The notes below the pieces were generated by a model. It had not been told where the DNA came from and made no database searches. It was given only the letters and a program-made list of their open reading frames with translations. DNA of 64,000 nt from Nannochloropsis salina CCMP1776. Its lineage: Eukaryota; Sar; Eustigmatophyceae; Eustigmatales; Monodopsidaceae. Location of the stretch: positions 19,340 through 83,339 of the forward strand of contig SDOX01000005.1 of NCBI GenBank assembly GCA_004565275.1, given 5' to 3'. Below are positions 13,873 to 62,500 of the stretch, piece by piece. The stretch's first letter is position 1. Each line of letters opens with the position of its first letter. The translations under genes and the position numbers were made by a program.

Positions 13873-16800
13873 ATGCCGAGAGAGGAGGTGAACGAGGCTG
13901 CAGGTGGGTGTTTTCTTCCTTCATATTTTTGTTTATATTTACTTAGACATACTTTTTCCCACACGCTTCTGGACAGGCATAAAGCTGTCTCGAGGCTTGG
14001 CAACCATTCGGTCAATAGAGTAAAAAAGAGAATGAGGAGAAAGGGAGGGAAGCGAGACAGTACGATGGATGGGTTTTTGTTGCCAGGGGCTAAAAGCCAT
14101 TACGTTCCAGACTTGATGATATTCCCGGTGCACCAAGGTACGGCTATTGAGGAGAGGGAAAAGGAGCACTTCTTATTTAGGATCTCTGTCTATATGTTTA
14201 TCTTAATATTTTTTGGGTCTGAACACATCCAAACATAACCTGGCAAAGCAATTGAATCATTGTCACGGTCTGAGCCTGTGTTCCCATTGTGCCCGCCTCC
14301 TCGTCTCACACCCCGACTCTCTCCCCAGACATCCACTTAGATCTGACACAGATCCCACAAAAGACGCTCAAAGGCGTGGTGCACATCACTTTCGCCTGTC
14401 GATCGCCCACAGAGGGAAGGAAGGTCGTGCTTGACGCAGTGGCCTTTGCGGAATTGGCGGTGAGTTCTGCAAGCGCGCAGCGGGATGTGAGAGGGCAGGA
14501 AGGTGTCTTCCACGTGGACGGGGCGGATTGTGCAAGGGATCATGTGCACGCCTTTTATCCTGAAACCGCTTCTGAACATTTCCAGATGATGCCCTCCTAC
14601 CCTCCTCCTCCGTCCTCGCCTGCAGGTAGACAGCTTGGACGCGAGCTTCTCCCTGTCGTACCGCTACGACGGGAAGAGGGTGCAAGTCGTGTGGGACAAT
14701 CCGTGGCGCGTGGGGGAGCAGCGACGGATTCGAGTGCTTTACACTGTCGTCGCCCCCGTGGCCGGTGCGAAGGAGGAGTGGGGAAGAAAGAGAGGAAGGG
14801 AGGTGGCAGGAGGGGAGGACAGAGAGTCAAGCAGACATGGCGGAAGGGAAAGACGCGCTCCGTTGGCCATTCATGATTCAACCCCCCCACTCCAGGCATG
14901 CACTTCTGTGGGGACGCCGGCGATGGCAAGGGCCCTACGTACATCCTTTCTGACCACGAGACGGAGAAGTACGGCATGCCCCATCCCCCTGTCATCTCCT
15001 CTTCCTCGCCCCCTCCCTTCGAATCCATTCTTCCTTCCGAATTATTTCTCATTCTCTACGTCACTCGAATCCATTTCTCCTGCCGAGTGGTCCCCCATTC
15101 CCTGCGTCACCTCTTGCCTCTTCTCCCTTTCTTTCCTTCCTCCCAGAGCTCGCTACTGGCTCCCTTGCATGGACGTACCCGCCGTCCGCACCACGGCCTC
15201 ATTCTTCCTGACCACGCGACCGGAGCACTTGAGCTTTGCGAATGGGGAGCGGGTCGATAGCGGGGAAGGGGCGCCGGGCGCTCGGCCGGCGTGGGGACAG
15301 GGTCAGTGAGGAAGTGTCGCGTCGCAGACAGGTCATGGGATGCGCCATGCTGATGTTTTCACTCCCCCTTTTTTGCAGATACGAGGACCACCTGCTGGCG
15401 CCTGGACATCCCTTGTCCTTCCTACCTCCTGTGTGTGGCCGCGGGGGCCCTTGCACTCTTCAAGGAGGCCTCCGAGGAGAGCAAGGCCCTCCTGCCCGGG
15501 TGCCCCATCGCCTACATCGCCCCTGTGGGCGTGGAGGAGCGAAACGTTCGCCTCGCCTTCGAGGTCGGGTCTCTCTCCTCACCTCCCGCACCAGTGTCAA
15601 CGCCTTCCGTGATGGTCCTCTCTGTCCCCTTAAATCCATTTATCTTGCCCTGTCATCTGTCTTCTTCTGGTTGTCGGCTTCGATCGGACTTTACGCATCC
15701 TTTCGTCCCTTTTCTTCCGCTTTTTTGGGGGACGACTGAACCGTGACTTTCTTCCCTATCCGCAGCCCACAGCTCGAATGCTGCACTGGATCGCAAACAA
15801 GGTCGGGAATGGGACATTTCCCTTCCCCAAGTACTACCAGGTCGGGAGGGAGGGAGGGAGGGAGGGAGGCGGCAGAGGGGGAGCGGTGTGGGGAAGAGAC
15901 AAGAGAACCCTGAGGCTGTCGATTGCTCCGTCCTGATTCACAGACTCCTCCTCTGTCATGCAGGTGATGGGAGACGCGCATGAGTCGGCGATGGAGAATA
16001 TCAGTTTGGTGTCATGGGGCCTCAACTGGCTGATGGATGAGACACTCTGTGCGTGGGAAAGGGCGGGAAGGGTGGGAGTGAGAGCTCGAGGGAGGAGAAC
16101 TGAGAAAAGGGGGGCGGAGGCAGGAAAAGAGCACACGAAAATCGATGCGCTGGGGTACGCTGTCTGTATTTGAATCCAGCACGCCACCGCTCGTGGTACT
16201 TATTTTACTATGCCTTCCGCCTATTTTTGGTTCAGTGAAGGAAGACAGGCTGGTCATGAACTCGATCAACATTCACGAGATCGGACACAGCTACTTCGGG
16301 GACTGCCTGGTGGTAAGGCGGGAACGACGAGACATGGGGAGCAGTGTGCAGAATCCGGGCGGCAGTGTTAAAGGAGAAAGCTTGCTGAGAATCCCTCTTG
16401 TGGCAGCGCACGCGACATCCTTAGAGGATTTTCAACAAGTCCCGTTCGGCCCCCATATCATTCCCTACCCCACACTGCAGATACAGCATTTTGAGCACGC
16501 CTTCTTGAAGGAGAGTTGGGCTACCTACATCGAGTGCTGCTGGTTGGAAGATACCGAGGGCCAAGATACCTTTCTCTTCCAGGTCAGGAAAAGCGGGAGG
16601 GGCGGGGCAGTGGGCCGGTTAAGATGCAGGAGATGGGCGAAAGCCCTTGCTTTCTGGTTTATTAAATTATTTTAAAATCTCCTATGTTTCATTTTGGACG
16701 TCGCTTCTCTCTTTTCTTCAATTTTTCCCCAGCTTTATACAGACCTACGCGCTTACATTACTGAGGTGGAGGACGACTATGCGCGACCGATTGTCACGCG

Positions 16801-19800
16801 CACATACAATTCCTCGTGGAGCATGTACGATGATCACCTGGTAAGAGGGTTAAACTTTGAATAATATAATACTGAGTTATTATGGGTTATGCAAGGCACG
16901 AGAGTCGTAGATTTTGATGCCTTCACAAGTATATAGCTAATTCGCGACGGCCGCCTGAGTACAGGGCACATTTCTTGAGGAGCCCTCAAGGATTAGTCTT
17001 CTAAACCTATAAATCTTATCCAATTCTTGCCTTCTTCCCGTCTCCTGCTTTCCATTGACAGTACCCCGGTGGATCCTGCCGTCTGCACATGCTCCGGAAG
17101 CTCCTGGGCGATCAAGTCTTCTGGCAGGCAGTGCGGGCATACGTGGACCGGTATGTAGAACCTCGGAGGATGGAGAGGGCAGTGACAATCTTAATGGCTT
17201 GACTTCTTGGATGTCTCGTGTCTTTGGTAGATTTGCTTTATGACACATGATTGCTGTCTTTTCAGGAATATGCATAAAGTCGTGGAGACGAGTGACTTCC
17301 GCAAGTGCTTGGAGGAGGTCTCCGGCCGCTCTCTGGTGCGTTTTTTTGAGCAATGGTTCTACACGCCATCCTTTCCGCAGGTATGAATATCTTTTCTTGT
17401 CGGCTTGTCTCAGTCGTCTCGCCATTTTCGTGTGCGGGGGCGAGTTTGGATCCTCTTTTTTTTTTTTTGACGTTTCTCGCTTCCTTCTGAACCTACTCCC
17501 TGCAGCTAAGGGGCGAGTGGGAATATGACGAGGAGACCAAGGTCATCACGCTGAGCATCAAACAGGGGGAGTTGGAGGACAGCGATCGCGAGGAAGACGA
17601 TGATGAGGAAATAAGCTTGTTTGATATTGCTTTCACGATAGAGGTCTACAACAGGGAGGGGGTATTGGAAACAACCTTGAGGCCTGCCTTGACTCGCACA
17701 ACCCGCAAAGTAGTCGTTCAAGCCAAAGTCTCTCGCTCGCCATGCTACGTGCATGTGAACCCGCAGCTGGCTGCGGTCATGACCCTTGGTGAGTCAGTTT
17801 GGAAAGGGAGGGATAACGCGGGACGGATAGTCGCGTGGCATATGTAAACGAAGCCGCGAGAGTGTCTGTGTGTTGGGGCTTATCGAGCAGCGGATCGCGA
17901 TAATGGCGCGAGAGTATCTGTGTGCTGGGGCTTATCGAGCAGCGGATCGCAATAATGGGTCGGAATGTGGCGCCTGATAGTCATTCATTGTTCTCGCGCA
18001 ACCAAACATTGGGATCTAAATGACAGACATGGAATGTGAGGAAGAAATCCTGGCAGCGACAGCGCGACGTGCCACCGACCTTCCCTCTCGCATTTGGGCG
18101 TACGAGCAGCTCATCGAGGAGGTGGCTACTCCCAGTGCGATGGCTCACGTCCGGTAAGGCGACAAAAGAACTTGTGTAGATGCTTCTTGAGACAAAATCC
18201 AGCCTAGACTTCGTATGCCAATTATTCCCCCGCTGAAAATACACATGCGCCGAGACAGTGAGCACGTTCCTGCAGAGCCCTTTTGGGGCGTACGCGTGGC
18301 CGTCGCGGACATTCTCGGCGACAACCCGTCTCGGACCAGCGCGCAAATTCTAGGGGAGTTGTTGAGAGCCGAAAAAGATCCACGTGCCCTCCATCACATC
18401 GCTGAAGCATGCGGCGCGTTTCGACATCCGCTTCTCAGAGATGCCTTGCTAGACGTGTGGACCCGACAGTGGGACTTGTATCGGTAATGAGGGCCGGGTA
18501 TGAAGTTACAGGAGATCAAGACGAGAATCGTAGGTTTCTTGCTTTTGGGTGATTGTCGCATTCGCTTGATGTTTTCTTTCTACTCTATCCATTGGACGCA
18601 GGGCGAAGGCGGAGATATTGACATCCCTTGGGAGTCAGAATGATGTTCAGGACCTGGAGCTCCTTCTGGATATTTGTCGGGAGCACGAGTCGTCGGAAGG
18701 CGCGAGGAACGACCCCAACTTGCTGGAGACAAACATCGTGGGCAGCGGTCTGTATGGGAGAAGGAATCACGGCAGTTATTGTCTATGGCGTGAATGTTAA
18801 CGACAGCATGTGAAGTCATATGATTGGTCGCTGTTTCGTTTTGTTCCTCATAGTCTGCCTTTTTACACACCCAGGTGCCCTACGTGGCCTCTCTTATCTG
18901 CGTGCAGCACACCCTGTCGGCAAGCACAATACAATTAATGCATATAAATATCTGAAAACCCGCCTCACGGATGGCGGGAAAAGGGAGGCCCAGCTTTCCA
19001 TTCGGATAGTGGTGGTCGAGGCCTTTGCCCGCGCGGCGTCTTACGTTCAAGACAAGAGCACGAGAGAAGAGGCGGCCGAAATATTAGCAGGGTTGTTGAT
19101 GGATGAGGAGCAGCGAACGGCGGAAATAGCAGCGTGGGCGCTATCGGAATTCCTGCCTCTGGAAGCTGAATATTATCGAAGGTAAGCGGAAGTTTGGCAA
19201 CGAGGAAAAGAGAGGTTTCGAAGTGTAGTGAAGAGAGAAGATAGACAAAACGAATATTGTTCTTGTGATATTGTTGATAAGGATGTTAACATATAGATCT
19301 ATTTTTTATTCCCTTCTCCAGTGAGCTTTTCTCTCTTCGACATCGACTCCCGGTGCAGGAGCATTTCTCGCTCGACAGGCTCTTGCGAGACCTGGATGAT
19401 GAGAAAGAGGAGGCCACGCCGCTGCAGAAGTTGAAGAAAAAAATGGAACGGTGGGAAGATCGGGTTGGAGCGTGGGAAGAGGCGCTCGAGGAGCACGTGG
19501 CTGATGTTGACAAACATCTGCTCAAGAATGAGGGAAAGGGAAAGGGAAAAGTTCCGAGCGGAAGGAGCAGGACACCAAGAGGGGACGAAAGTGGGAGCTC
19601 TGAGGATAGTGGGAGTGAAAGTGAGAGTCAAAATGAGAGTGAGAGCGAGAGTGGGGGGAGTGGGGGTGGGAAAAGTGAAAAGGGTGGTGAGGGAGGTAGC
19701 GGCGGAGTCAAGACGAAATCTGTGCACCACCATGGACACACCCGTCGCCGTCATCGGGGAGGGAAGGGAAGGGGTTGGAGAAAAGATGGGGGGCACAAGC

Positions 19801-20230: not shown

Positions 20231-23142
<2,912 letters not shown>

Positions 23143-23804: not shown

Positions 23805-26800
23805 TCAACCCTCCTCCTCTTCCTCTTCTTCCTCCTCCAAAACCTCCTCCATCTCCTCCACTCCAATATCCTCTTCTTCCTCTTCCGCCCCTTCCCCGTT
23901 GCCCTCCTCACCTTTTTTCCAGCCCAATCCTCTTTTGAAGTCGTGCAATTGCCTCTTCAACCGTTCCGATAGCCCTTCCTCTTTTTCCCCTTCACAGCTT
24001 CCCTCCTCTCCCCCCCCCTCATTCCACCCTCGCATCACTTGGATGGACATGCACATTCTCTTGATATCCACTAAGTGGAAGGCATCACTCCATTCCAACA
24101 CATCCGCGCAAGGTGCTCGATCCGTCAAGGCCCTTCGAACATAAGCGCTGCACATCTGCATGAGAGGGTGCAAGCCGTACCGGTGGGCGAGAAGCAGGAG
24201 TGGAAGGAGCACGGTCTGGATTTCAGCAGTGACCTGCAAGGTGTCTGTATACAAATATAGCAAAAGCGCGCGAAGGACCGGGGGCGCTACGTCTCCCAGG
24301 GAGATGATGGGCTCAGAGGCTTCGCGCATCCCACTGCTTAGCATGGCCTGGAAGTAGGGGCAGCGACGGCGCAAGAAAGACTTATGCGCCCACACAACCT
24401 CGCCCGTCGTCAGCCCGGCCTCTCTCCCTCCCTCGCCCTCCCTCCCTCCCTCGCCCACAGAGCCCGCCTCCTCCCCGGTCACGCCAATCGTGCGTCGATA
24501 CACGTCACATTCACGCCCTCCATCCCTGCCCCGTTGCCTCCCCTCTCCGAATCCCAGCAGCTGGAGGAGGTCCAGCGCGAGGGTGGAAGGGAGGAGAAAG
24601 ACGGGCGGCTCCTTGGGGAGGGCGACAATGGAGGCCCTTGGGCGGGAAGCAATGACAACCTGATACTTCTGCAAAGCTCTTCCTTCAGTCAATCCCCCTA
24701 CAGGAGAGAAGACGAGGGGGAAATCACGAATGTGCATTGTCTCCGAGCCCGCCTGTCCCTCGCGGCCAAAAAAACGCGCCTCCCTGCTACTTCTCTCCAA
24801 TGACCATCCTCCTCGGTCTCGCTGATCCGCTTCCGCAGCCCACAGGGCCGCGTGGCCACAGAGAAATTCAAGCTCGTAGACATCACTATCTTTCCCTGCG
24901 GCAGGGTCATCATGTCTGTTGGTTAAATTGGAGGAAATAAATGAGGAGGAGGCAGGACGAGGCAAGAAAGGGGAAGACGCGAGGGAGTGGGCGAGCGATG
25001 CAATTTTAGGACAAGAAAAGAGAGAAAGATCGACAACGAGAGGGACATAGGAGATGGGAATCTCCTAAACAAAGCCCCTTGTAAGCGCTTACGTGTCTCG
25101 CACGCCTCCAAACACCAGCAGCCGCCCTTGTGGACCGATATGTCCTCGCCCTCCCGCCTTCGGTCCCTCAGGCGGACACCAGACGACGCTGTGCTGGGAA
25201 CGGGGAGGAGGGATGGCGAGACGACGCAGGGCAGGGGCGTTCAGAGTGGAAGGAGGGGCGTCGGCAGCGGTGGAGGGCAAAGGGCGGTAGATTGTAGGGT
25301 AGGTTTTCCAGTGACAGACTAGACCTTCTGTCAGTGAGAGGGAGTCGATCTGATAGGGATAAGGGCCAAAAGGGGAGGCAAGGCGAGGGACAAATGAAGG
25401 AGGGAACGGGGTGAGGGGAAACAAAGACATTTGAGGCATGAAATAATGACCTTTAAAAAAGGTCAAGAGGGCGAGGGGGATCCACAGACGTTGGCAAACA
25501 GATGGAGGCCTGACTAGGTAGGAAAGAAGGACTCCTCCATTCTCTTCTCCCCCTTTCTTCCTCCCTCGATTTCTCACCACCAAAATCTTCAACATGTCCG
25601 AAGTTGGAACGTTAACTCCGATTTCGGAGACGCCGCCTAGGACAGCAATGTGACGCCTGTCCAGAAGGGTCATCGTATGCCCGTACCTGCGAAAAGAGGG
25701 GGGAGCGGGGATAGGAGGAGGAAGAGCAAAGGTGGTGCGGAGATTGAGTCGATGATTATATTTTCAAGGAAGGCCTCGAAAAGAAGGATGTCTTCTCAGA
25801 TCCAGCCATCCTGTCTCACTTTTCCCTATATATCAGTCATCTCCTCCTCCCATCCTCCATGACGGCATCCATCCCGTCACCCCCTGTGCTCTCACCGGGC
25901 TCCCTGCTCGCTCCCGTTCACGACGTCCACCTTCTCCCAAACGATTTTCCGGCGTAGGCGGGAGCAGCTCAAGGGGGAGGAAGAGGATGGAGCGGAGGAC
26001 GGGAAGAAGGCAGGAGAAATGGTCTCGAGCCGAGCACAGTGCAAATCATTGAAGATCACTTCCGTGCTCACCCCCCCGAATACAAGCATGCTGTCGAGTG
26101 AATGTAAACGAGGAAATGAATAAGATCAAGTAGTAGAAAACGACAGGCGCCGCGAAAGCACATCAATCGGGGTACCACTCACGCCCCCTGCTTCACCTTC
26201 CCACCTTCCCTACCGGTCTCCTCCCTCCTCTTCTTTCCCCGGCAGGAGCACGGCTTCATGCGACCATCTGGGCTGCGGAGGAGTCCCTTCCACCTCCGGA
26301 AGCGACCATTCGAAGCGCCCTTCCTGCCCTGAGCACCCCTTTCCTTCCTCGAAGTAGGAGAGTAGGAGAGTGTCCTGGAGGGCGGCCCGGTGGGAGATTG
26401 AAAGCCCTCCGAAGACCCACATTTCCGTCTTCAGTTGCTCACGCTACAGGGCCATGGATTGATAAGCACAGACACAGAGAAAGTTAAAAATAGGAGATAG
26501 GAGGAGTGAGCATAGTGAGCAGCCAGTCATAAACTTGCCTTCTTCCCTCCTGCCCCTCCCTGCCCTCCCTCCCCCCCTCCCGCCCGTCTCACCTGGTCAT
26601 CTTTCCTTGGAAGATGCCGTGCCACCATCGTGTGTCGATTCCTGGCCGCAACGAAAAGCCCTCTGTGGAAGGCAACGCGGCGGAGGCTGGGATCCACAAC
26701 CACTTTCCCCCCCTCGTCGTGCGGATGGTAGCGAGCCCATGACAGGCTGGGGATGGAGAGGAGGTAGAATGGTTCCATCAGTCCCAGTGCGTCTTCTTCG

Positions 26801-29800
26801 GACCTAGCACGTGCATGGAGAATGAAACTGTGAGCCTTCTGTACGTCTCACTATTTTCTAGCCCCCCTTCCCTTCCTCTTTCTTCTTCTTGGACTCCCCC
26901 CTCATGCCTTGTGTAATGCGCCCCCCCGAACACAAGCAATCGCCGACGAGGATCCTGGCGCGAAAAAGGATCGTCCAAAGGGACGGTCGTGTGGCCGACT
27001 AGAGAGGGAGGAATGCTTTTCAAGGGTCCTGACGCCTGACGAAAGGGGGGTGGAAAGGAGGGAAGGGGACGGGAAGGGAGGGGGAAATAGTTTAATAATG
27101 CCAGGAAATGAGAGATGAAGCATGCGTTTCTCCGCGCTAAATAAGCACATAGACCCCCAAAAATGCACCAGTAGTACAGGCCCTCTATATCACCCTAAGA
27201 CGGTCCAGATCGAAGGAAAGGTGGGGAGACCCTGACCTATTCATAGTGACGACCATCCTACACGGCGCCACTCCCCCCCTTTCTCACCTGCACGCGGTTC
27301 CATCGCTTTTTCCGAGTGTTGTACAGGAGGAGAGAGCAGAACGAGAGGCAGCTTCGGCGACTTCCTACCCCCAACACGACCATGAGGGGAAGGGGCGAGT
27401 CCGGGGGGCATGCAGGGAGGGAGGAGGGCGACATGAAAGGGGCTGTGCCGATGCTGTCCTTCCACGGGCTGCTAGCCGCGAATGCATCGGAGAGATAGAG
27501 GTGGAGGAAGGTGGCGGTGTGGCCCATATGAGTGGGAATCGACGCTCCGACAGGAGGAGAGCGAGGGTGTGCCTGACCCGGGCCCTTTCCGTACTCGACT
27601 TCGTTCCCACTCTGCTCCATCTCCTGCTTCTCCACCCCCTCCTCCTCCTCCTCCGCCTCGTGAACATGACCGCCCTCCTGATTCGTCCTTCTCTCGCCAT
27701 CAAGCCCTTCCACGTGCAAGTCCAATCTCGCTTCCTCCGCCGCCTCCCGGCCTTCCTGCCCGTCAGAATCCCCGCTTAGGAAAAAGAGACATGGATAAAG
27801 CAATCAGCGCATTAATTCTTTCCTCCGCGTGCCTGAACCTCCCTTCCGTCTTTTCCATTCTGCACCCCGCACCGCCCGTCCCACACTTTTCTTCCAATGC
27901 TCCACCGTCCCACCACCCGTTGGCCACGGATACAAAAACCTCTGAGCCCCCTTCTCCCACTGCGGTCCTCCTCTTCCTACCTCTCGGTCGCCGGCTCCGA
28001 TGAGTCAGTTGAAGCCACAAACTGGTACCCATCCTCTTTCTCCATCATAATTTCCACAGATTTGAGCAAAGATGGTAGCAATGGCGAAGAGCAGAAGTGT
28101 ACAGCGAGGAGCTCCTGCGAAAGCCGGGAAAGCGCATGGATTTCTTGAGTTTTCATCCATGGTCCCATGTTCACTTCCCTTGCGCCCTCTATTACATCAT
28201 CATCACTTTCCCTCCTTTCCTTCCTGCTTCCGCACCTGGTGACAGGCAGCAAAATATGCGAGGAAGGTCTCCAGCTGTCGGGCATACACTCGGCGCGCCA
28301 GTGCATAGAGAGGGAGGCAGGTGGGCACGGCCACCATCTAAGGCCGCCGGAAACAAGGAAGGAGCGGAAGGAGCGGAAAGTTGCAGGAATAGTTAGGAGT
28401 CCTGGAAAGGATGGCCCACGCTTACACCCCCACCGGATCCCTTTCCCCCGAGGCCTCCACATCGCGTTCTTATCCGCGGTCCCTTTCCTTCCTTCACCAT
28501 CTCCCTCATTGCTCTCTCGGTCCTCCCCCGGTCGATTACCTCTTTCAATCTTGCCTCCACCAGCGTGAAGAGACGCGAAATTTCCATTTCTTGCGCTATT
28601 ATCAACAGAGCCTCCAGGAATGGGAGCATGTCGAGCATAGCGTCACTGATGGAGCCAAGGTATAGAGAAAATGTGGGAAGGGGCGAGGGAGGGAAGAACA
28701 AACCCGAAAGAGGGGCGTGGGAAAGGAGCAGCGACCAGCAAAAAAGAGAGGGGATGTATAAAGACAAGATGCTTGGAACGGCAATCCGACAACAGGGGAG
28801 AAAGAGACGAGGAATAACAAATGAATCAAGGACCAAAAGAGGGAAAGAAGAAGAGAGAACGGGAACGGGACTTTCATACCTGTCCTTTGCCTCAATGTGA
28901 AGGGAGGGAAGCTCATCTGTGTACAGATAGTAAAGCACGGTTTCAAACACAACATGCAGAGGAGGGAGATGACTGGACACACTCTCTGACGTCGCGATCT
29001 CCTGATCTTCTGAGCCGCGCGCGGAGTACCGAAGGGGCAGAGGAATGATTACTCTGGAAGCAGGAGAGAAAGGCGAAGACGAGGCGGAAGGGCGAGGGGA
29101 GAAGGAGGGAGCGGCTAGAACTCTGGCGGCCTCTTCTTTGATAAACTGTGAGCGTGCGCACACAATGGGCAGGTGTACTCGAAAGTACATCATTTCCCCA
29201 CGCTTTCCTTCGTCTCCTCCGTCCCTCTCGTCCTTCACAATGCCGAGCCAGGCAAGCTCCTGCTCCTCCATCGGCGGCCCATCGCCCTGCCCCTTAACAT
29301 CTTCCCTGTACAAGTCATGCAGGAAATCCCGAAGTCGTGCCGACGGGAACAAAGAAGAGATGTCCATTGTCTCCTTCCCCTCTTCCTCCTTTCCCATCGC
29401 ATCCTCTTCCTCTACGTCCATCGTCCCTTTTTGCCCTTCTCTCCCTCGGGATAGTGACTCGCATGAGGAAAGCTCAGCGTGCCCGCCGCTCCCATCTGGT
29501 CCACGAAAGGCCAGAGAAGAGGACATTGGGACGATATCTAGCTTTCGCTCTGGTATGGGGGGAAGTGGGCGCGGGGAGGGGAAAGGAAAGAGGGCCGACG
29601 TGGCAGCTTGCAGGGTGTGGCTGTGGCTGTCGCCCAACATATCGATGCTAATGATTTCCAGAGGAAAGGAGGCGTCACTATGGGTAGACAGGGTAGGAGG
29701 GAGGAGAAGACATCGTGCTGCTCAGCTAAAATGTCACACACGAGAACGAGAAGACGCTATTAAAGAAGCGAAATGTGATGAAAAGAGAGAGGAATAAGGA

Positions 29801-32322
29801 GAAGAGGGAGGGCGGGAATGTACCGGTAGTTGACTAAAACGGAAAAACGGTGGTCACATAGCGGGTCCCCGCGTAGGGACTGCACGTAGAGAGAGTGGTG
29901 TCGACGTCCGGGGTAGGCTTCGAATGAGGCGACTGAGGGAGGAAGAAGGGGGAAAGGAAAAAAGGAAGGAAGTGACGACGAATGAAGGGAATGATCGCAC
30001 GCTACCGCGGGAAAGGAAGGCGAAAATGAAATTTTAAAATAAAAAAAACGTACGCGCATCTCCCGTCTGTGCGCAGTGGACCCGCACGTCCTGCTCCTCT
30101 GACGACCCTGTAAAATGTGGCATCGGGCGTTAAGTACAAAGCTTTCAACTCCTCCCCTCCTCCTCCTCTTCAGTTTTGCCCATCCCCCTCTCCTCATCTC
30201 ACCGCTTAAGATTGCTTGCCCGCTGGCAGTGTAGTAAGCACGGGTATAGTTGTCGGCTAGGCCCGTCTTGGGCAATCCCTTCAGATGTAAGGCGATACGG
30301 CCGTCCACCGCCTCGAGCTAGGATTTGAGGAAGTTCAAGAGAAAGGGTGAGGGAAGAGGGAAGGCTTAAGCAAAAGCACAGGTTCCCGCAAATTGACGGA
30401 GATTCAGCTGGCTACTGCCACGCGTGAGCAGACAGCAGAGGGGTTGGGATAACGAGGGAGGAAAATCCTGTTTTTTTAAATAAAATTTCACAGCACTCAC
30501 TTGAACGATGTCGTTGTCAACTCGAGAAGCCAACAGATGGACGTCTTCGGGACTAAAAAAACACAAGAGGAAGTAAGTCAGGGCGCAAGGCGACATCGAG
30601 GCGTCACTGCATGGGTGCAGGGCACGTTATGAAGGAGGGAAGCAAGAAGCGAGGGGGTGACTGACCTAAAGCAGACCATCACGTGGCCCTGTTCGCTCCG
30701 AGCCGTGTACAAAGGCCGTGTGCCCTAAGATCCATAGAAAGCAGCACGCTCAGCCGATTGTTAAACATACAGATCGCACGCTAATCTCCATGACACAAAC
30801 TCAGCCATTTCATGCTCGCATTTCCCCCCCTGTGCAGCAGGTTTTTCTGTTCTCAAGCTATTCTAAAGCGCTTGACAAGATGGAGCCGTCTCTCTTTGTC
30901 CGACGTAATTTCACCCTACCGCGCATCGTAGGTCCCACAGCTTGATGCTTTTGTCGAAGGAGGAGGAAGCAAAGAGATGAGGCGAGTGGTTCGCAAACCT
31001 GGCAAAGAGGAGAGGAAGCAAAAGCGATGAGAGCATTTCTTTCCGGTCATCATCACGTTCAACTTCAAGCGTCAGTCTCGATTCTCTTCCTCTCCCTATG
31101 CTAATTCTCCTTTTCTGTTCCTCAAACTTTTTAATCACCTTGATATGTTGATGTGGTCGCTGTGTATGCTCTCGAATCTACGGACAATGGCCCCGGTCTG
31201 GGTATCGTAAAGTTGGACGGTGTGGCTGTATCCACTGCAAAGCGCAAGGAATAGAGCGTTTAGACAGAAACGAAACGGATAAGTGGAAAGTACGTCGCAA
31301 GCCCACGTTCGATTTACTACACGGTAAAACGCTTTCTAGAACACGAGGAGAGAAACATGAAGGAGGAAGGGATGGAGGATGAGAGGGGTAAAAGAGATTG
31401 AAGACCATCTCCCACCTGACGAGAACGCGGGAGTCGTCGCAGTTTCCATGAAGAGAAGTCAGCCGATCGAACTGTGACGACAATCAAGCATCATCGAGAT
31501 AATTATAATTAGTTCCATGTGAAAGCAGATGCGATCCTATAATATTCCTTTCTCACACCCCCTCGCTCTGTCCCGACGCTGGGATTTTTTCTCATGGGAT
31601 CCCTCACTGGAAAAACGATCCGTCTGTTTACCCCTCTTCAATTGCTGACTCCAACTGTACCTCTTCGTAGGTCAATACAATGGCATTTTCTGTCTCCCAG
31701 GCTTCCCTCTCTATGTCGCAGAGCTGAATGACGCCAGCAGAAGAGCCCACGAGGAGTTTAGAAGGATGCTTCTTCAACCATGACAGACTGCCCGGAACGA
31801 TATGAAGAAAAGGTACGGAGAGAAATCCTGAATCGGTCAAATATTCGAACAGGTCGGTCACAAAAAAGGTGACAGGATAGATAGAATGGACAGGCTAGGA
31901 GTCAAAAGGACACCTCTCTCTCCATGTATCGAAAAGAGCGCCCAGGAACAAGACGTGTAATGCAAAAAGGACAACACATCACACAATGAAAGTGTGGAGA
32001 AACCCTTTTTAACTCACCCCAGGATGGAGTCATAATCATGCTTGGCGAAGTGTGTCTCGGTCGAGTTACCCAGTTGCCTCACGATTCTCCTAGCCCTTCT
32101 CCTGTCTCCTCCCCTTACTTGCATGCCTCTTCCCGCTGGTGTCTCCACATCTTTTCGTCGCCAAGCTTCAGCACTCCGCGAGTTCGGGCTGCCCTCGCAA
32201 ATTACAACCTCCCCTCGGATCGTCCCGAACACTAGGCGGTCGGGAACGTGCGGGCTGTACTCAAACTGACGGGGATGAAACCCCTTCCCCTCACACAACA
32301 CATCAGTCCTCCAATCATTCAT
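23805..32322 (-). CDS. Giant multidomain protein: WD40 propeller - BTB(-BACK) - kelch propeller - BTB, about 22 exons
   Basis: Phase-consistent exons run from ATG 32322 to a stop at 23805, giving about 1,700 residues. Exons 1-10 form a WD40 propeller: CEGKGFHPRQFEYSPHVPD, LLVGSSAGVIQLCDIE, SGYSHTVQLYDTQTG, HLFASSSFDKSIKLWDLR, then LYVQSLRGDPLCDHRFSV. Exon 10 ends at 29824 and joins exon 11 at 29677. The joined frame completes the last WD blade (VNYRDASFPLEIISIDMLG) and runs into BTB-1 (FRVHLPIVCARSQF, FETVLYYLYTDELP) and BACK-like helices (LYALARRVYARQLE). Exons 15-21 hold kelch repeats (MVVLGVG, RLLVFGGAHYT, EMWVFGGLSISHRA, MLVFGGVSTE, HIAVLGGVSEIG, GRLLVFGGVRDT). Exon 22 carries BTB-2 (VWAHKSFLRRRCPYFQAMLS, LRALLLYLYTDTLQV) and an acidic tail. 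BTB proteins commonly recruit cullin-3, so a ubiquitin-ligase adaptor or scaffold is likely. LZTR1 (kelch-BTB-BTB) is the nearest known arrangement I recall. One intron (26804-26907) is GC-AG. Confidence 0.8.
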
Positions 32323-55972: not shown

Positions 55973-58921
55973 ATGCTCCGTCCTCCTGCAGATCAAGTAA
56001 CGAGCAAAACAAAGGCTCCCGGTGTGAAAAGGCACCGAAAAGATAGAATTTTGACCACATGTGTGAAAAGATCGGGCACAGTGGACGGCGAGCTTACTAA
56101 AAAGAAGAGAAAGATATCGGTTGCCTCTCCGGTCGTTGTACGCGGTCGTGGGACTGGGACACATAACGGTGAAGAAGACTTGATGCGTGACTTGCTGGAA
56201 GAAATGGGAGCAAGTATGACGCAAAGCACCAACCATTTTGATGCTGAGAGGAGGACGAATGGTCTCTTGTCCGCTCCTTCTAGCGTTTGCAAGGAAAAGG
56301 AGCAAGGGGGAAACGAGGAGGACAAGGAGGAGGAAAAACAAGAAGCAGACGTGGGAAAGAATGAGGAGAAGCAAGGTAAAAAAACAAACAAACATCATGA
56401 TGCAAAGCAAATCAACGCGACAAGGGGGTCAGAAGGCGCGAATCGATGTGGAAAAGGAGACGGCATCCCAAAAAGGCAGAGATGGGAAGGAGAAGCGAAA
56501 GCAAGAGGGACCAAGGGCGGACCTGGCATCGCGACGCAAGAAGTCTCAAAGCAGGACCAGGATAAGCAGGCGCCACAAGTGCTGCCAAATGCGTGCGCAC
56601 ACCTCAGCAGCACCGCACGCGTGTCTCCGCTAGAGTTGTGGAACCCGAGTCTCTTGATTGACCAAGCCACTCTCAACCTCCCCTGGCGCGATGCCACCGA
56701 TACCAGGCACAGGGACACTTTCCCGCGTCCGGGGACAGCATTTTTACTGCACGGTCCAGACCCACACGTGGAAGTGGCGCGAGCCCGGGGGCTTGTGGAG
56801 CTGGCCCGCTGGTTCGTGAGTACTGCTCTGAAACACGCCACTGAGCACCCCCGCACGGAGGCAGAAGGGTCGCCGCCACAGGCAGCAATCCTCCACCGCG
56901 CGTTGCAGGCGTGGCGATGGAACAACAAGGTGGTGGAGGAGAGGGGGAGGGGGGACAGCAAAGGGGTGAAAGGCTGGAATGGAAAGGGGCCACGGCCTTT
57001 ACCTGACCCCGTCTTGCCGGGCTCCTCCGCCTGCGAGCGGGACTTTCGACTGGCCAAGTGCCTGACGAGCCGCGAGGTAGGTAAGCCTACCTTTTCCATA
57101 CGTGTAGCTGCCGCTTTCCTCTTTAAACTGTTCCTCCTCCCCCCACTCCTTTCCCCTACTCTCTAGATCCAACTTCCGCCCGAGGTGGCCGTCGAACTCT
57201 GCGAAGCCCTCGGTCGAAAGGCCCTGACCCTCCTCTCCTCCCTCCCGTCTTCGTCCTCCCTCCCTTCCTCCGCCCCTTCCCGTCGCCGAGCAAGTCGGCT
57301 AGATCACCCCCCAGTCCTCAGGAGCCGCCGTCATGCCCCCTGTCTGTACCTTCCTCTCTCCTCCCTCTCGCCTGCCCGTCTGGCCCTCTTGGAAGCGAAC
57401 GAAGCGCTCGAGCTCTCTCTGCTAAAAGGCCATGCGTTGCGGATCAATACGAAACATTACCAAAAGCTCAAGGTGAGCAGTCACGGAGAGCAGGAAAAAC
57501 CGGGGGCGAAGGGAGGGGAGGGGCTTCGATAACGTTTCCCTCCCTGTGTCTTCACGCTCACCCTCCTGACGATGCTCTTCCTTTCCCTGCTCCTCCGCTT
57601 CCGATGCCAAGGCTCTGTACACTCAGCGACCGTTCCACCCGGCGTCCTCCCCGCCCTCGTCCTCCACCCCGTCCTTCTCTCCTTCCTCGCCCCCCTTCCT
57701 CTCCGCAGCCCAAGAAGACGACTTCCACGAACGCCTCGGCTGCCTCCTTTTCAGGTACGAGGCCTTGGCGGCCACCGCTCGAGACTCCCTGGCCTCGTCC
57801 ACCCTCCCTCCCTCCCTCCCTTCCTCCCTCCCTTCCTGCCCCGTCGCTGACGACGCGGATGAACGCGCGTTGCCCCCGCGGGTCTACGATGTGCTCGCTT
57901 CCCTCTTCCAAGTGCGCATGGAATGCTTCGCATCCCCCTTCAATTGCCGCTACCGCACGTATTGCTCCAGTCAGAGGGAGACGGACTGCTGGTTCGGGTC
58001 GATTGGTTCCTTCTTTGAATTCCAACCCTTGACGGGGATGTTTCTCGCACACCCGCCCCGCGCCACCGAGGTGGTACAAGCCATGATCAAGGTAAATCGC
58101 CGCCGGATTAGATGGGGCATTGTCTCAGAAATGACGAGTCCATGGAAACATGCTTGGCAGGAGGTGTTATTCTCCACGGGAATTACCCGGGAGCTTGCGT
58201 CGAAGTGGCCACGCCTGCATTTGGCGCGGGAGGCATTTTTCCACTACAGGGGTGTCCGCTAAAGTCGTCTTTAACGGTTTCAAGGCCCCTTTTCATCAAT
58301 GAGGCACAAAGTCTTTCAGGACATGGATGATTTAAATCCCTTTTCGGGCTCAGAGGACATAGTGTATTTCCATCCCCGTCAACTCCTTTCCTCATCAAAA
58401 CCTTAGCATGCGACCGTTTTCTCCCATCCATGTGCTCATTCTCGTTTCCCCTGCCACAGCATATGAACTACCTTCTTTCGCGCTGTAGTTCCTCGCGCCT
58501 TCTAGGCTTCTTCGTCGTGTTGTCCTCCGGCTTGGTCTCCGTCGGCTCTTCCACGGCAAAAACTACCCGGAGCCCCCCCCCTTTTTCACCATTCCAAGCC
58601 TGGTCGATACGCGTAGCCGCCACCGATTACGCCTTCATTGCAGGCAGCGACTACTATCAGCCGCGTCGTTACATCCATTCGGGGTCGGATGACAGTGATG
58701 GACTCGATGATCTCCTGCTTGTCGCCCTGCTCTCTCCTGCGGCAGCGGCAGACCCTGCCTACCAGCTGAATAGTACGCGGGAAGAAGAGGTACGGGAGGC
58801 TTTCGGGAGTTACAAAAATGAATTGGCAAAAGACCGACTGGAGCCACCCCCTAAAGATTTGACGAATCCTGCATCAGTGCGGGACGCTAAGGGGGGAGGA
58901 ACGGCGGAATGGTGGTGGTAG
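55973..58921 (+). CDS. PCIF1/CAPAM-like mRNA cap-adenosine methyltransferase homologue, 4 exons, altered catalytic motif
   Basis: Exons 55973-57076, 57167-57472, 57612-58091 and 58460-58921 sum to 784 codons (783 residues plus stop) with intact phase. The N-terminal 200 residues are disordered and basic/acidic with nuclear-localisation-like clusters (KKKRKI; KRQRWEGEAK). The C-terminal half matches the PCIF1 methyltransferase fold: HALRINTKHYQKL, LLFRYEALAA, ALPPRVYDVLASLF, MECFASPFNCRYRTYCSS, DCWFGSIGSFFEFQPLTG, then MNYLLSR with FFVVLSSG, and a C-terminal RYIHSG. PCIF1 binds the phosphorylated RNA polymerase II tail and methylates cap-adjacent adenosine (m6Am). In active members the catalytic motif is N-P-P-F. 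Here the corresponding position reads H-P-P-R (FLAHPPRATE), so the N and aromatic residues are both missing. I see no WW domain at the N terminus. The family call is strong; catalytic activity is doubtful. Confidence 0.85.
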
Positions 58922-59536: not shown

Positions 59537-62500
59537 ATGGGCAAGAGAGATAAAAGGAAAAAGGCAGCAGCTAAAGTCGGGGGGGCTGGTGCGGGGAAGA
59601 AGGAGGAAAAAAGAAAGAAGCAAGAGGCGAAATCAAAAAAGGCAAGTGAAGTTGTGCATTGAGCTACTGTTGGAGGTGGGCTGAGATTGAAATGAGATAG
59701 AATCGATCTGAATACCAGCTCATATGCAACATGTATCAATCAATTGATTACAGAAAGCGACCAAGGGAGGAGGTGGTGCCGGAGAAAAAGACAAAGAGCT
59801 GCAAGAAGAGGACATTGAGGCGATATTGGCTGAGGTAGGAGAGCGGGCGTGCTAGAGAAGTCTCCATCATCCCTCACATTGATCACGTGGCAACATGTAC
59901 CAACAAATATCCTTAGATTCGTGCCAAAGATGCGGCCAAGACAGCTGTGACTATTTCGGAGGCACCTCAACCCTCCCCGCGCACGAATTTTTCTCTGACC
60001 ACTCTACCTTCCGGGGAGCTCCTGCTTTTCGGGGGTGAATATTACGACGGTGAAGATACAATTGTTTACAATGGGGTCTACAGGTAAAGGATGATGCGTA
60101 TGGGGACCATAGGAAATTGGAAATGGCGTGGAGGGGCCCTCACGTTGAGTTTTTGCACGCACACAGGTGGCACCTGGAACGAGGGGAGTGGCGTGTGATC
60201 GAGAGCCTGAATGCCCCGCCACCGCGCTGTTCTCACCAGGTACGACGTGTATTACGTCACAACTTGCATCTGTCCAACTTTTTGCTGAAATCAATGCCGG
60301 TCTCTCGATCCTTGGTTTTGCCGACGATCGACACGTTCCCTAGCCCCCCTCTCCCCTCCCTCCCTATCTCCCCATTCCCTCCTTCCCTCCCTCGTTCTGG
60401 ACTCTTTCGTCGTCGCCGTCCTCCCTTTTCTCTCAGTATGTATCGCCAGACCCCCCTCTGCGAGCATCGCGAGTACTTCATTCCTCACCACCCGGGGTCC
60501 TTCCCCTCCTCCAGCTTCTCGCATGCCACGCCCGGCCTCATCGTGACAAAATGTCATTCCTCCTTCCGTTCTTCCCCCCTCCCTCTCCAGGCTGTTTGCT
60601 ACCGGGAGCACCTCTACGTGTTCGGCGGGGAATTCGGGACAAGCGACCAATTCTACCACTATCGAGACCTTTGGCGGTGAGTCTTCCCGCCATTTTTCAA
60701 CCTGCCTTCTGTTCTAGTCGTAGGCCTGGTTTCAGGAAAAGGCCGAGCCACCTTTTCTCAGCCCCCTTTCTCTTCTTTGGCGGCAAAGCAAAGCACGCCT
60801 GAAATGCTTCATTCCCGCTCTGAGCCTTAAAGCTTTGTTCGCACCTCTTTCTGTCCTTTTGACTCACCGTAATCCGTTCCCGACAGGCTCGATTTGAAAA
60901 GCAACAAATGGGAGGAGCTTCCCCTTCAGAAAGACACGCCCTCTGCCCGCTCGGGGCATCGCATGTGCCTTTGGCGCCATTATTTGGTCCTTTTTGGAGG
61001 ATTCTATGAGGTACCGGCCTGGGATCGAACGCGTAAATGGGTGAAATTGTGCGGGTGGAGCGCTCAGGAATACATTGTAAATTCTCATCGTGCGAGGCTC
61101 ACACGGCACTCCCTCCCTTCCTCCCTCTTTCTCTCCCTCTTCTTCTCCCTTATTCCCTCCCTCCGCCCCTCGCTTCGGACTCCAGGCCTTCCGGGAGACG
61201 CGCTGGTACAACGACCTTTTCCTCTTCAACCTGCAGGACTTGAAGTGGAAAAAAATCGTTTATTCTGCAACCGCACCGGTAAGGCTCCCTCCCTCGGTCC
61301 AACCCTTCCTCTCCTTCTTCCTCCCCTCCCCCATCCCTCTTTTCCTCGCTTTCTTCTTCCCTCCGTCACGCTCTCCCCCTTTCCACCCTCGGCTTGCCTC
61401 CTGCAATAACCTCCTTTATTTACATTTATTTTTATATTTCTTCATTGCCAAATGATTCACCTCCCTCCTCCCGTCTTTTCCTCCTCTTTCCCTTCCTCCT
61501 ATTTCCCTCCAAGGTCCCGACGCCTCGCTCGGGCTGCCAAATGGCAGTCGGGACCGACGCCGTGTATATCCACGGTGGCTACTCCAAGGTTGTCCGCCCC
61601 CCTTTTCCCCTCCCCCTCTGCCACCCTTTCCTCTCCCACTTAATTGCCTCCTGGTCCTTCTTTCCTCCTCAATTCCTCCTCCTACGACAAAGTCCTCTCC
61701 TCCCTATCTTCTCAGCTCAAAGTACTCCTCCCCTTCCTCCCTCTTCCCCTTTCCTACCCAGATGAAAGCTACCGTCACGACCGTATTCGGGCATTCCCAG
61801 AGTAGCAAGGCAGAGGGATACGTCCACGACGACACATGGGCCCTCCAAATGAAAACCGTACCCGCGGGGGGGCAGCCGTATTGGGAACGGGTAAGCCTTC
61901 CCCTCCCTCTCAATCCCTCCTCCCCTCCCTCTCTCCCTTCCTCCCCTCCCTCGACTCCCCCTCCCGACCCTCTTCCTCCTATCATCTCCGCTGCAGGTCT
62001 CACGCAAGGGGTCTCCCCCCTCCTCTCGTTCTGGGGCCTCCATGATCAGCTACAAAACCATTGCCCTCTCCTTCGGCGGGGTCCATGTAATGCTCTCCTT
62101 CCCTCCTTCCCTCCCTCCCTTCCCCCCTCCCTCCATCCTACCTCTTCCCCTTCCTCAAACCATTCTCTCTCTTCCATACCCGAACCTCGCCTCGTTCATT
62201 ATCGAGCCCATGCGTCTCCCCCCCTCCCGGGGTTGCCCCCTCCTCCTCCTCTCCCCCCCCCCACCTTACGGGGTTGCCCCCTCCTCCTCCTCTCCCCCCC
62301 CCCACCCAGGACGTGGAAGGCAAACAGCACGCCATGACCTCGGTCTTTTACGACGACCTCTATCAGTTCGACATGCTCCGCAGACGCTGGTGCGTCACTC
62401 TTTGTCCCGTGCTTTAAGTTTACCTCTTTTTCTCTCTGGCTAATGGAGATCTATTTTCCTTCCCCTTCTCTCACTAGCCTCCTTCCCTTATTTGTTCACG

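Follow-up and report, generated by a model that had tools for sequence, protein, structure and literature searches.

A 22-exon gene of Nannochloropsis salina for a predicted WD40-BTB-kelch-BTB protein, a candidate cullin-3 adaptor

The stretch of 64,000 nucleotides analysed here, contig SDOX01000005.1 of the eustigmatophyte Nannochloropsis salina CCMP1776 from position 19,340 to 83,339 (the window, in whose own numbering all coordinates are given), carries on its minus strand a gene whose predicted product joins a WD40 propeller, a divergent BTB-like segment (BTB-1), a BACK-like helical segment, a kelch propeller and a well-formed BTB domain (BTB-2) (Table 1). When the exons were rebuilt by splice motifs in the minus-strand region 33500-23000, a coding sequence of 4983 nt free of in-frame stop codons was obtained between the ATG at 32322 and the stop at 23805; all 21 introns are GT-AG and a single open frame spans the 22 spliced exons. 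A first-pass annotation of the same DNA had proposed this model with phase-consistent joins, and each of its exon details was recovered. RNA features were looked for as well, and none were found. Two of the three domain joins are intra-exonic, WD40/BTB-1 in exon 11 and kelch/BTB-2 in exon 22, while the BACK-kelch join passes via intron 14. That the locus holds one gene rather than split genes we regard as quite probable.

Table 1. Features of the WD40-BTB-kelch-BTB gene, in window coordinates
Feature	Residues	Position	Strand	Remarks
Whole gene model	1-1660	23805..32322	minus	22 exons, 1660 residues; spliced, coding-tested
WD40 propeller	1-365	29635..32322	minus	exons 1-10 and first 14 codons of exon 11; seven blades by eye
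DWD (DDB1-binding) box-like 16-mer FASSSFDKSIKLWDLR	204-219	30926..30973	minus	pattern comparison
Intron 10, WD40/BTB-1 link		29678..29823	minus	146 bp
Divergent BTB-1, with long insert	488-652	28540..29268	minus	part of exon 11 and exon 12
BACK-like helical segment		27981..28337	minus	exons 13-14; by eye and position
Intron 14		27775..27980	minus	BACK-kelch join, critical to the one-gene model
Start of exon 15		27540..27774	minus	acidic linker
Kelch propeller	810-1320	24828..27539	minus	exons 15-22; six blades by eye
Intron 16		26804..26844	minus	41 bp; or 98 bp (26844-26747, first exon base 26746)
BTB-2	1462-1551	24135..24404	minus	PF00651 1.4e-16; SPOP 2.3e-07
phi-x-E cullin-3 contact motif MRE	1487-1489	24321..24329	minus	aligned with SPOP MEE
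3-box-like helices after BTB-2	1560-1590	24018..24110	minus	position; low-confidence model, block predicted local distance difference test score (pLDDT) <60

Each splice site was given a leave-one-out score, with every remaining GT or AG dinucleotide of the gene serving as a decoy. At 17 of the 21 donors no more than 5.6% of the decoys are equally good (the exceptions, introns 4, 6, 9 and 16, range from 10.6 to 19.5%), and at 18 of the 21 acceptors no more than 6.4% (exceptions introns 7, 17 and 21, 8.0-11.1%). A self-trained leave-one-out coding model, partly circular as its training exons were drawn from the same gene model, placed all 22 whole exons above the intron model in the frame of the gene model; when exon-start stretches of up to 153 nt were scored, exon 4 fell 1.2 bits below the intergenic model and exon 19 fell 4.0 bits below the intron model. 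With an independent training set, 1171 codons from hand-picked stretches around Pfam matches in five further genes of the window, 15 of the 22 exons ranked first among six frames, where about 3.7 are expected if the frames were equal. Summed over the exons, the model frame led the other two sense frames by 407 and 544 bits and the antisense frames, which were numbered afresh for each exon, by 243-366 bits. Two observations speak against the gene model at this level. Seven of the 22 exons (3, 4, 5, 15, 16, 18 and 21) were not first-ranked with the independent training, and searches with a single-protein query, the reach of which is limited to close relatives, confirmed no relative among viral contigs (2, 1 and 5 pattern matches for the spliced WD40, exon-22 and exon-11 parts, respectively) or among genome contigs (18 for the exon-22 part).

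The WD40 part finds its best Pfam propeller model in THOC3 (2.8e-14), with the best stretches within residues 91-323, and matches WDR5 in the PDB (1.4e-14). The propeller-family models each stay below their own family cut-off, the single-repeat model PF00400 (cut-off 27) gives 27.3 bits when the WD40 part is taken by itself and 22.9 bits in the whole chain, and blades 1 and 7 were assigned by eye. The link to BTB-1 needs only intron 10, because exon 11 carries the last WD40 strand as well as BTB-1; it opens with DASFPLEIISIDML, read by eye as the strand completing blade 7, and then runs without a stop through BTB-1. The join from 29824 to 29677, VNYR to DASFPLEIISIDML, on which the first-pass annotation had built this continuity, was reproduced. 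A split at intron 10, in which read-through would terminate a WD40 protein at 29760 and a separate BTB-kelch-BTB gene would begin with the ATG at 29640, would be compatible with the stop reached after 20 codons of read-through and with the in-frame ATG close to the start of exon 11, but would leave blade 7 without the strand EIISIDML (by eye). We consider such a split very unlikely, as the splice sites are ordinary for the gene (donor 5.4 bits, acceptor 6.8 bits, leave-one-out) and the stretch scores 11.6 bits in favour of intron over intergenic sequence, just above the top of seven controls (+9.8).

BTB-1 is probably a degenerate BTB. Judged by eye, its elements succeed each other as in a BTB domain (H..I..ARS, a strand, YLYTDEL and two helices), and with the insert removed, PF00651 aligns over profile positions 23-90 of 110 with 13.2 bits (E=0.1), short of the 20.5 bits that its cut-off demands. 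Several negative results count against this identity: the piece comprising BTB-1 and the BACK-like segment matches no Pfam family at E<=10; the BACK-like helices match no Pfam profile; a comparison of BTB-1 with the PDB at E<=10 returned no BTB, its six hits (E 0.75-1.5) being fusion constructs of fluorescent proteins, and with the insert removed nothing in the PDB was matched. A single-sequence AlphaFold model of the BTB-1 core, with a mean pLDDT of 38.9, was too poor for a fold search. Of the four linked domains that had been proposed, WD40, kelch and BTB-2 are confirmed by Pfam and, like the open frame and the splice signals, are seen directly, while BTB-1 stays below the cut-off; the single WD40-BTB-kelch-BTB chain accordingly stands as the best-supported gene model, with a first BTB whose identity lacks profile support above cut-off.

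Between the BACK-like segment and the kelch propeller the one-gene model depends on intron 14, because this intron alone makes the join. The donor is strong, at 9.1 bits (0.3% of decoys do as well), the acceptor weaker, at 3.8 bits (6.4%). Among the 39 AGs located 60-400 nt downstream of the donor, the proposed acceptor is the only one that scores above zero, and the 171 codons which it opens in the phase of the kelch match are the longest frame found at any of them. The competing arrangement would consist of two same-strand genes, a WD40-BTB-BACK-like gene of exons 1-14 whose terminal TAG overlaps the donor of intron 14, and a kelch-BTB gene beginning with the ATG at 27620. Read-through from exon 14 does hit the TAG immediately and the ATG is in frame upstream of the kelch domain; still, the TAG is no evidence of a gene end, because a phase-2 donor starting with GTAA, GTAG or GTGA always creates a stop codon. 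The stops overlapping the donors of introns 14 and 21 had been considered as gene-end evidence and were dropped for this reason. The weak acceptor also favours two genes, as does the intron itself, which scores only 5.1 bits over intergenic sequence, a value within the range of seven intergenic control stretches of 200 bp (-19.9 to +9.8). On the other hand, the coding signal reaches upstream of the ATG at 27620, the first in-frame ATG of exon 15, to the acceptor: in the self-trained model, the opening 153 nt of exon 15 favour coding over intergenic sequence by 38.0 bits and the model frame over the other two sense frames by 31.7-35.0 bits. With the independent training the margins over the other sense frames are 11 and 22 bits, and one antisense frame ties (-0.3), which together with the control spread weakens the case for the join. 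Moreover, the sole possible initial exon found within intron 14 has a donor of 2.7 bits compared with 9.1 bits, and the intergenic space would shrink to approximately 360 bp. We therefore hold two genes at this position to be improbable. The GC content of intron 14 (0.55, with flanks of 0.45) says little, because the introns of this gene range from 0.44 to 0.59. The linker behind the acceptor is acidic, aspartate and glutamate making up 32% of residues 722-800.

The kelch propeller is recognized by PF24681 (1.1e-20, Pfam), and the ATRN/LZTR1-type propeller model PF24981 gives 7.2e-10, its 39 bits falling short of the cut-off of 50. In the PDB, dynein heavy chain alpha is the best match (5.4e-5) and LZTR1 (9mey) the second (1.1e-4), with no single stretch passing alone. 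Within blade 2 lies a weak part of the gene model: intron 16 is either too short to be normal or wrongly placed, which has to be held against the model. Only two in-frame site pairs score above the cut-offs, delimiting introns of 41 and 98 bp; the longer version, with an acceptor of 8.0 bits, keeps the frame and drops 19 residues of the blade, and Pfam does not separate the two (18.6 versus 18.7 bits). A decaying gene, in which the 41-bp intron conceals a frameshift, would account for a length so different from the 95-252 bp of the other 20 introns and for the weak donor (3.5 bits, 10.6% of decoys equal), but the other exons are open and coding-like by the self-trained model and the 98-bp alternative is at hand, and decay appears highly doubtful to us. 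A second kelch gene is located elsewhere in the window on the plus strand (60054-61406), where two open reading frame stretches match at best PF24681 with 1.4e-7, below cut-off, and Kelch_3 with 1.6e-5.

BTB-2 follows the kelch propeller in the same exon, as exon 22 carries DVYELEF, by eye the last kelch strand, together with this domain; the AC/A join between kelch and BTB-2 (DTHDDPAAGK) was also reproduced. The PDB matches of BTB-2 include SPOP, KLHL3, KLHL26 and KEAP1. In BTB-cullin-3 complexes, a phi-x-E motif between helix 3 and strand 4 contacts cullin-3 with its hydrophobic residue and its glutamate, and a 3-box behind the BTB domain raises the affinity for cullin-3 (PMC3616122, PMC3935762). 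BTB-2 possesses both a phi-x-E motif at the corresponding place and a 3-box-like tail, while in BTB-1 no phi-x-E is apparent by eye. The single-sequence AlphaFold model of BTB-2 (mean pLDDT 40.3) was too poor for a fold search, and no BACK profile of Pfam matches behind BTB-2. The cullin-3 adaptor envisaged by the first-pass annotation consequently retains BTB-2 as its candidate docking site and loses BTB-1; the idea of two such sites is not upheld, with BTB-1 sub-threshold even without its insert, unmatched by any BTB in the PDB and, by eye, showing no such motif.

We give an even chance to the reading that this single gene encodes a 1660-residue WD40(7)-BTB-BACK-like-kelch(6)-BTB protein which most likely is a substrate adaptor of a cullin-3 ubiquitin ligase. 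BTB-2 would dock cullin-3 via phi-x-E and the subsequent 3-box-like helices, and the adjoining kelch propeller would bind the substrate, whereas the degenerate BTB-1 and the BACK-like helices may pair two chains without docking cullin-3. The WD40 propeller could add a second platform, recruiting a substrate, a scaffold or a regulator. Single-unit transcription, dimer formation, cullin-3 binding and the engagement of substrates are inferred. The first BTB-BACK unit of LZTR1 has been reported to be required for dimerisation (PMC8154269), which suggests a pairing role for BTB-1. WD40 and leucine-rich repeat proteins have been reported bound to cullin-3, a precedent for WD40 proteins in cullin-3 complexes (PMC4107866), and stramenopiles possess three main cullin groups as plants do, suggested to be the same three (PMC2785787). 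Two considerations pull in the opposite direction, namely that the predicted cullin-3 binding is deduced from motifs alone, and that in LZTR1 both BTB-BACK units are possible cullin-3 contacts (PMC8154269), at odds with a BTB-1 restricted to pairing.

Instead of a ubiquitin-ligase adaptor, the same single gene might encode a scaffold protein, and BTB-1 may be no BTB. This alternative can build on the lack of any significant match for BTB-1 and on the fact that WD40, kelch and BTB domains also serve non-ligase complexes. Since BTB-2 retains phi-x-E and, in a low-confidence model, the 3-box-like tail, and BTB-1 keeps the order of BTB elements by eye along with its partial profile match, we view a scaffold as rather unlikely, though clearly less so than any splitting or decay of the gene. 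A further variant is a two-cullin adaptor, the WD40 propeller of which would dock DDB1-CUL4 via the DWD-like box while BTB-2 would dock cullin-3. The box, in blade 4, agrees with 11 of the 12 constrained positions of the published definition (PMC5460815, PMC5749748) and, as in the DWD/DCAF receptors of CUL4-DDB1, keeps all four most conserved residues; it differs by an alanine at position 2, with which the strict 16-residue pattern failed. Matching WD40 proteins number 161 of 471 in soybean (PMC5460815), and their share among plant WD40 proteins is given as about one third and, in the authors' own survey, as 53-57% (PMC5749748). With matches so common, in a third to a half of the WD40 proteins of plants, the box is weak evidence, and a two-cullin adaptor has a very slight chance of being correct; if it were, one chain would bridge two ubiquitin-ligase classes or switch a shared substrate between them.

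Compared with known systems, the cullin-3 adaptor reading comes close to several arrangements. The KLHL family (BTB-BACK-kelch) shows BTB, BACK-like helices and kelch in the order found in the middle of this protein, where BTB-1 and BACK are below detection; different from KLHL proteins are the well-formed BTB after the kelch propeller, the added WD40 propeller and the degenerate N-side BTB. KCTD3 and SHKBP1, which make up the class of BTB/POZ-like plus WD40 proteins, likewise unite BTB and WD40 within one protein, but have a KCTD-type BTB in front of WD40 and are without kelch. In a survey of human WD40 proteins, this class is described as potentially animal-specific, each of the two proteins is named once and, by word count, the main text does not contain the word kelch (PMC5172248). 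LZTR1, with the order kelch-BTB-BACK-BTB-BACK (PMC8154269), had been put forward as the closest arrangement, and it is a fair comparison insofar as a six-bladed kelch propeller and two BTBs share one chain and the kelch part matches LZTR1 as second best in the PDB and, below cut-off, the ATRN/LZTR1 model in Pfam. However, kelch here lies between the BTBs, WD40 stands in front and BTB-1 is below detection; a kelch followed by two BTB-BACK units is not what the gene encodes, as the sole BTB-like segment besides BTB-2 precedes the kelch propeller.

The four-domain order recombines well-known domains, yet is unusual, and no earlier description of it was found: in a partial literature collection, the titles and abstract openings retrieved for the architecture itself, for LZTR1 and its evolution and for cullin-3 in diatoms or stramenopiles report neither the architecture nor the gene, and nothing was retrieved for Nannochloropsis kelch and BTB proteins or for LZTR1 in Dictyostelium. 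The partner domains described for BTB adaptors are ankyrin, kelch, BACK and NPH3, those for F-box proteins kelch, leucine-rich repeats and WD40 (PMC4327156). A chain that unites WD40 and kelch propellers with two BTBs would, if true, cross this partner divide and broaden the designs of cullin-3 adaptors, and would also probe whether the LZTR1-like two-BTB plan works when rearranged; with the gene model right and the function wrong, a curiosity of domain shuffling would be left.

Among the other genes of the window, a class-III aminotransferase match on the minus strand (21174-22019, 1.9e-8) apparently marks the gene that follows downstream on this strand. The plus strand carries a match to the PCIF1 WW-domain family (57570-58259, 1.4e-29), which we take to be the family of mRNA cap-adenosine methyltransferases, and weak peptidase M1 matches (14590-16672, 5.1e-4 and 5.8e-5, below Pfam cut-offs), perhaps belonging to a TAF2-like protein. 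Between 3854 and 7972, a GNAT acetyltransferase (plus strand), a leucine-rich repeat protein (minus strand) and a 2OG-Fe(II) oxygenase (plus strand) are encoded consecutively.

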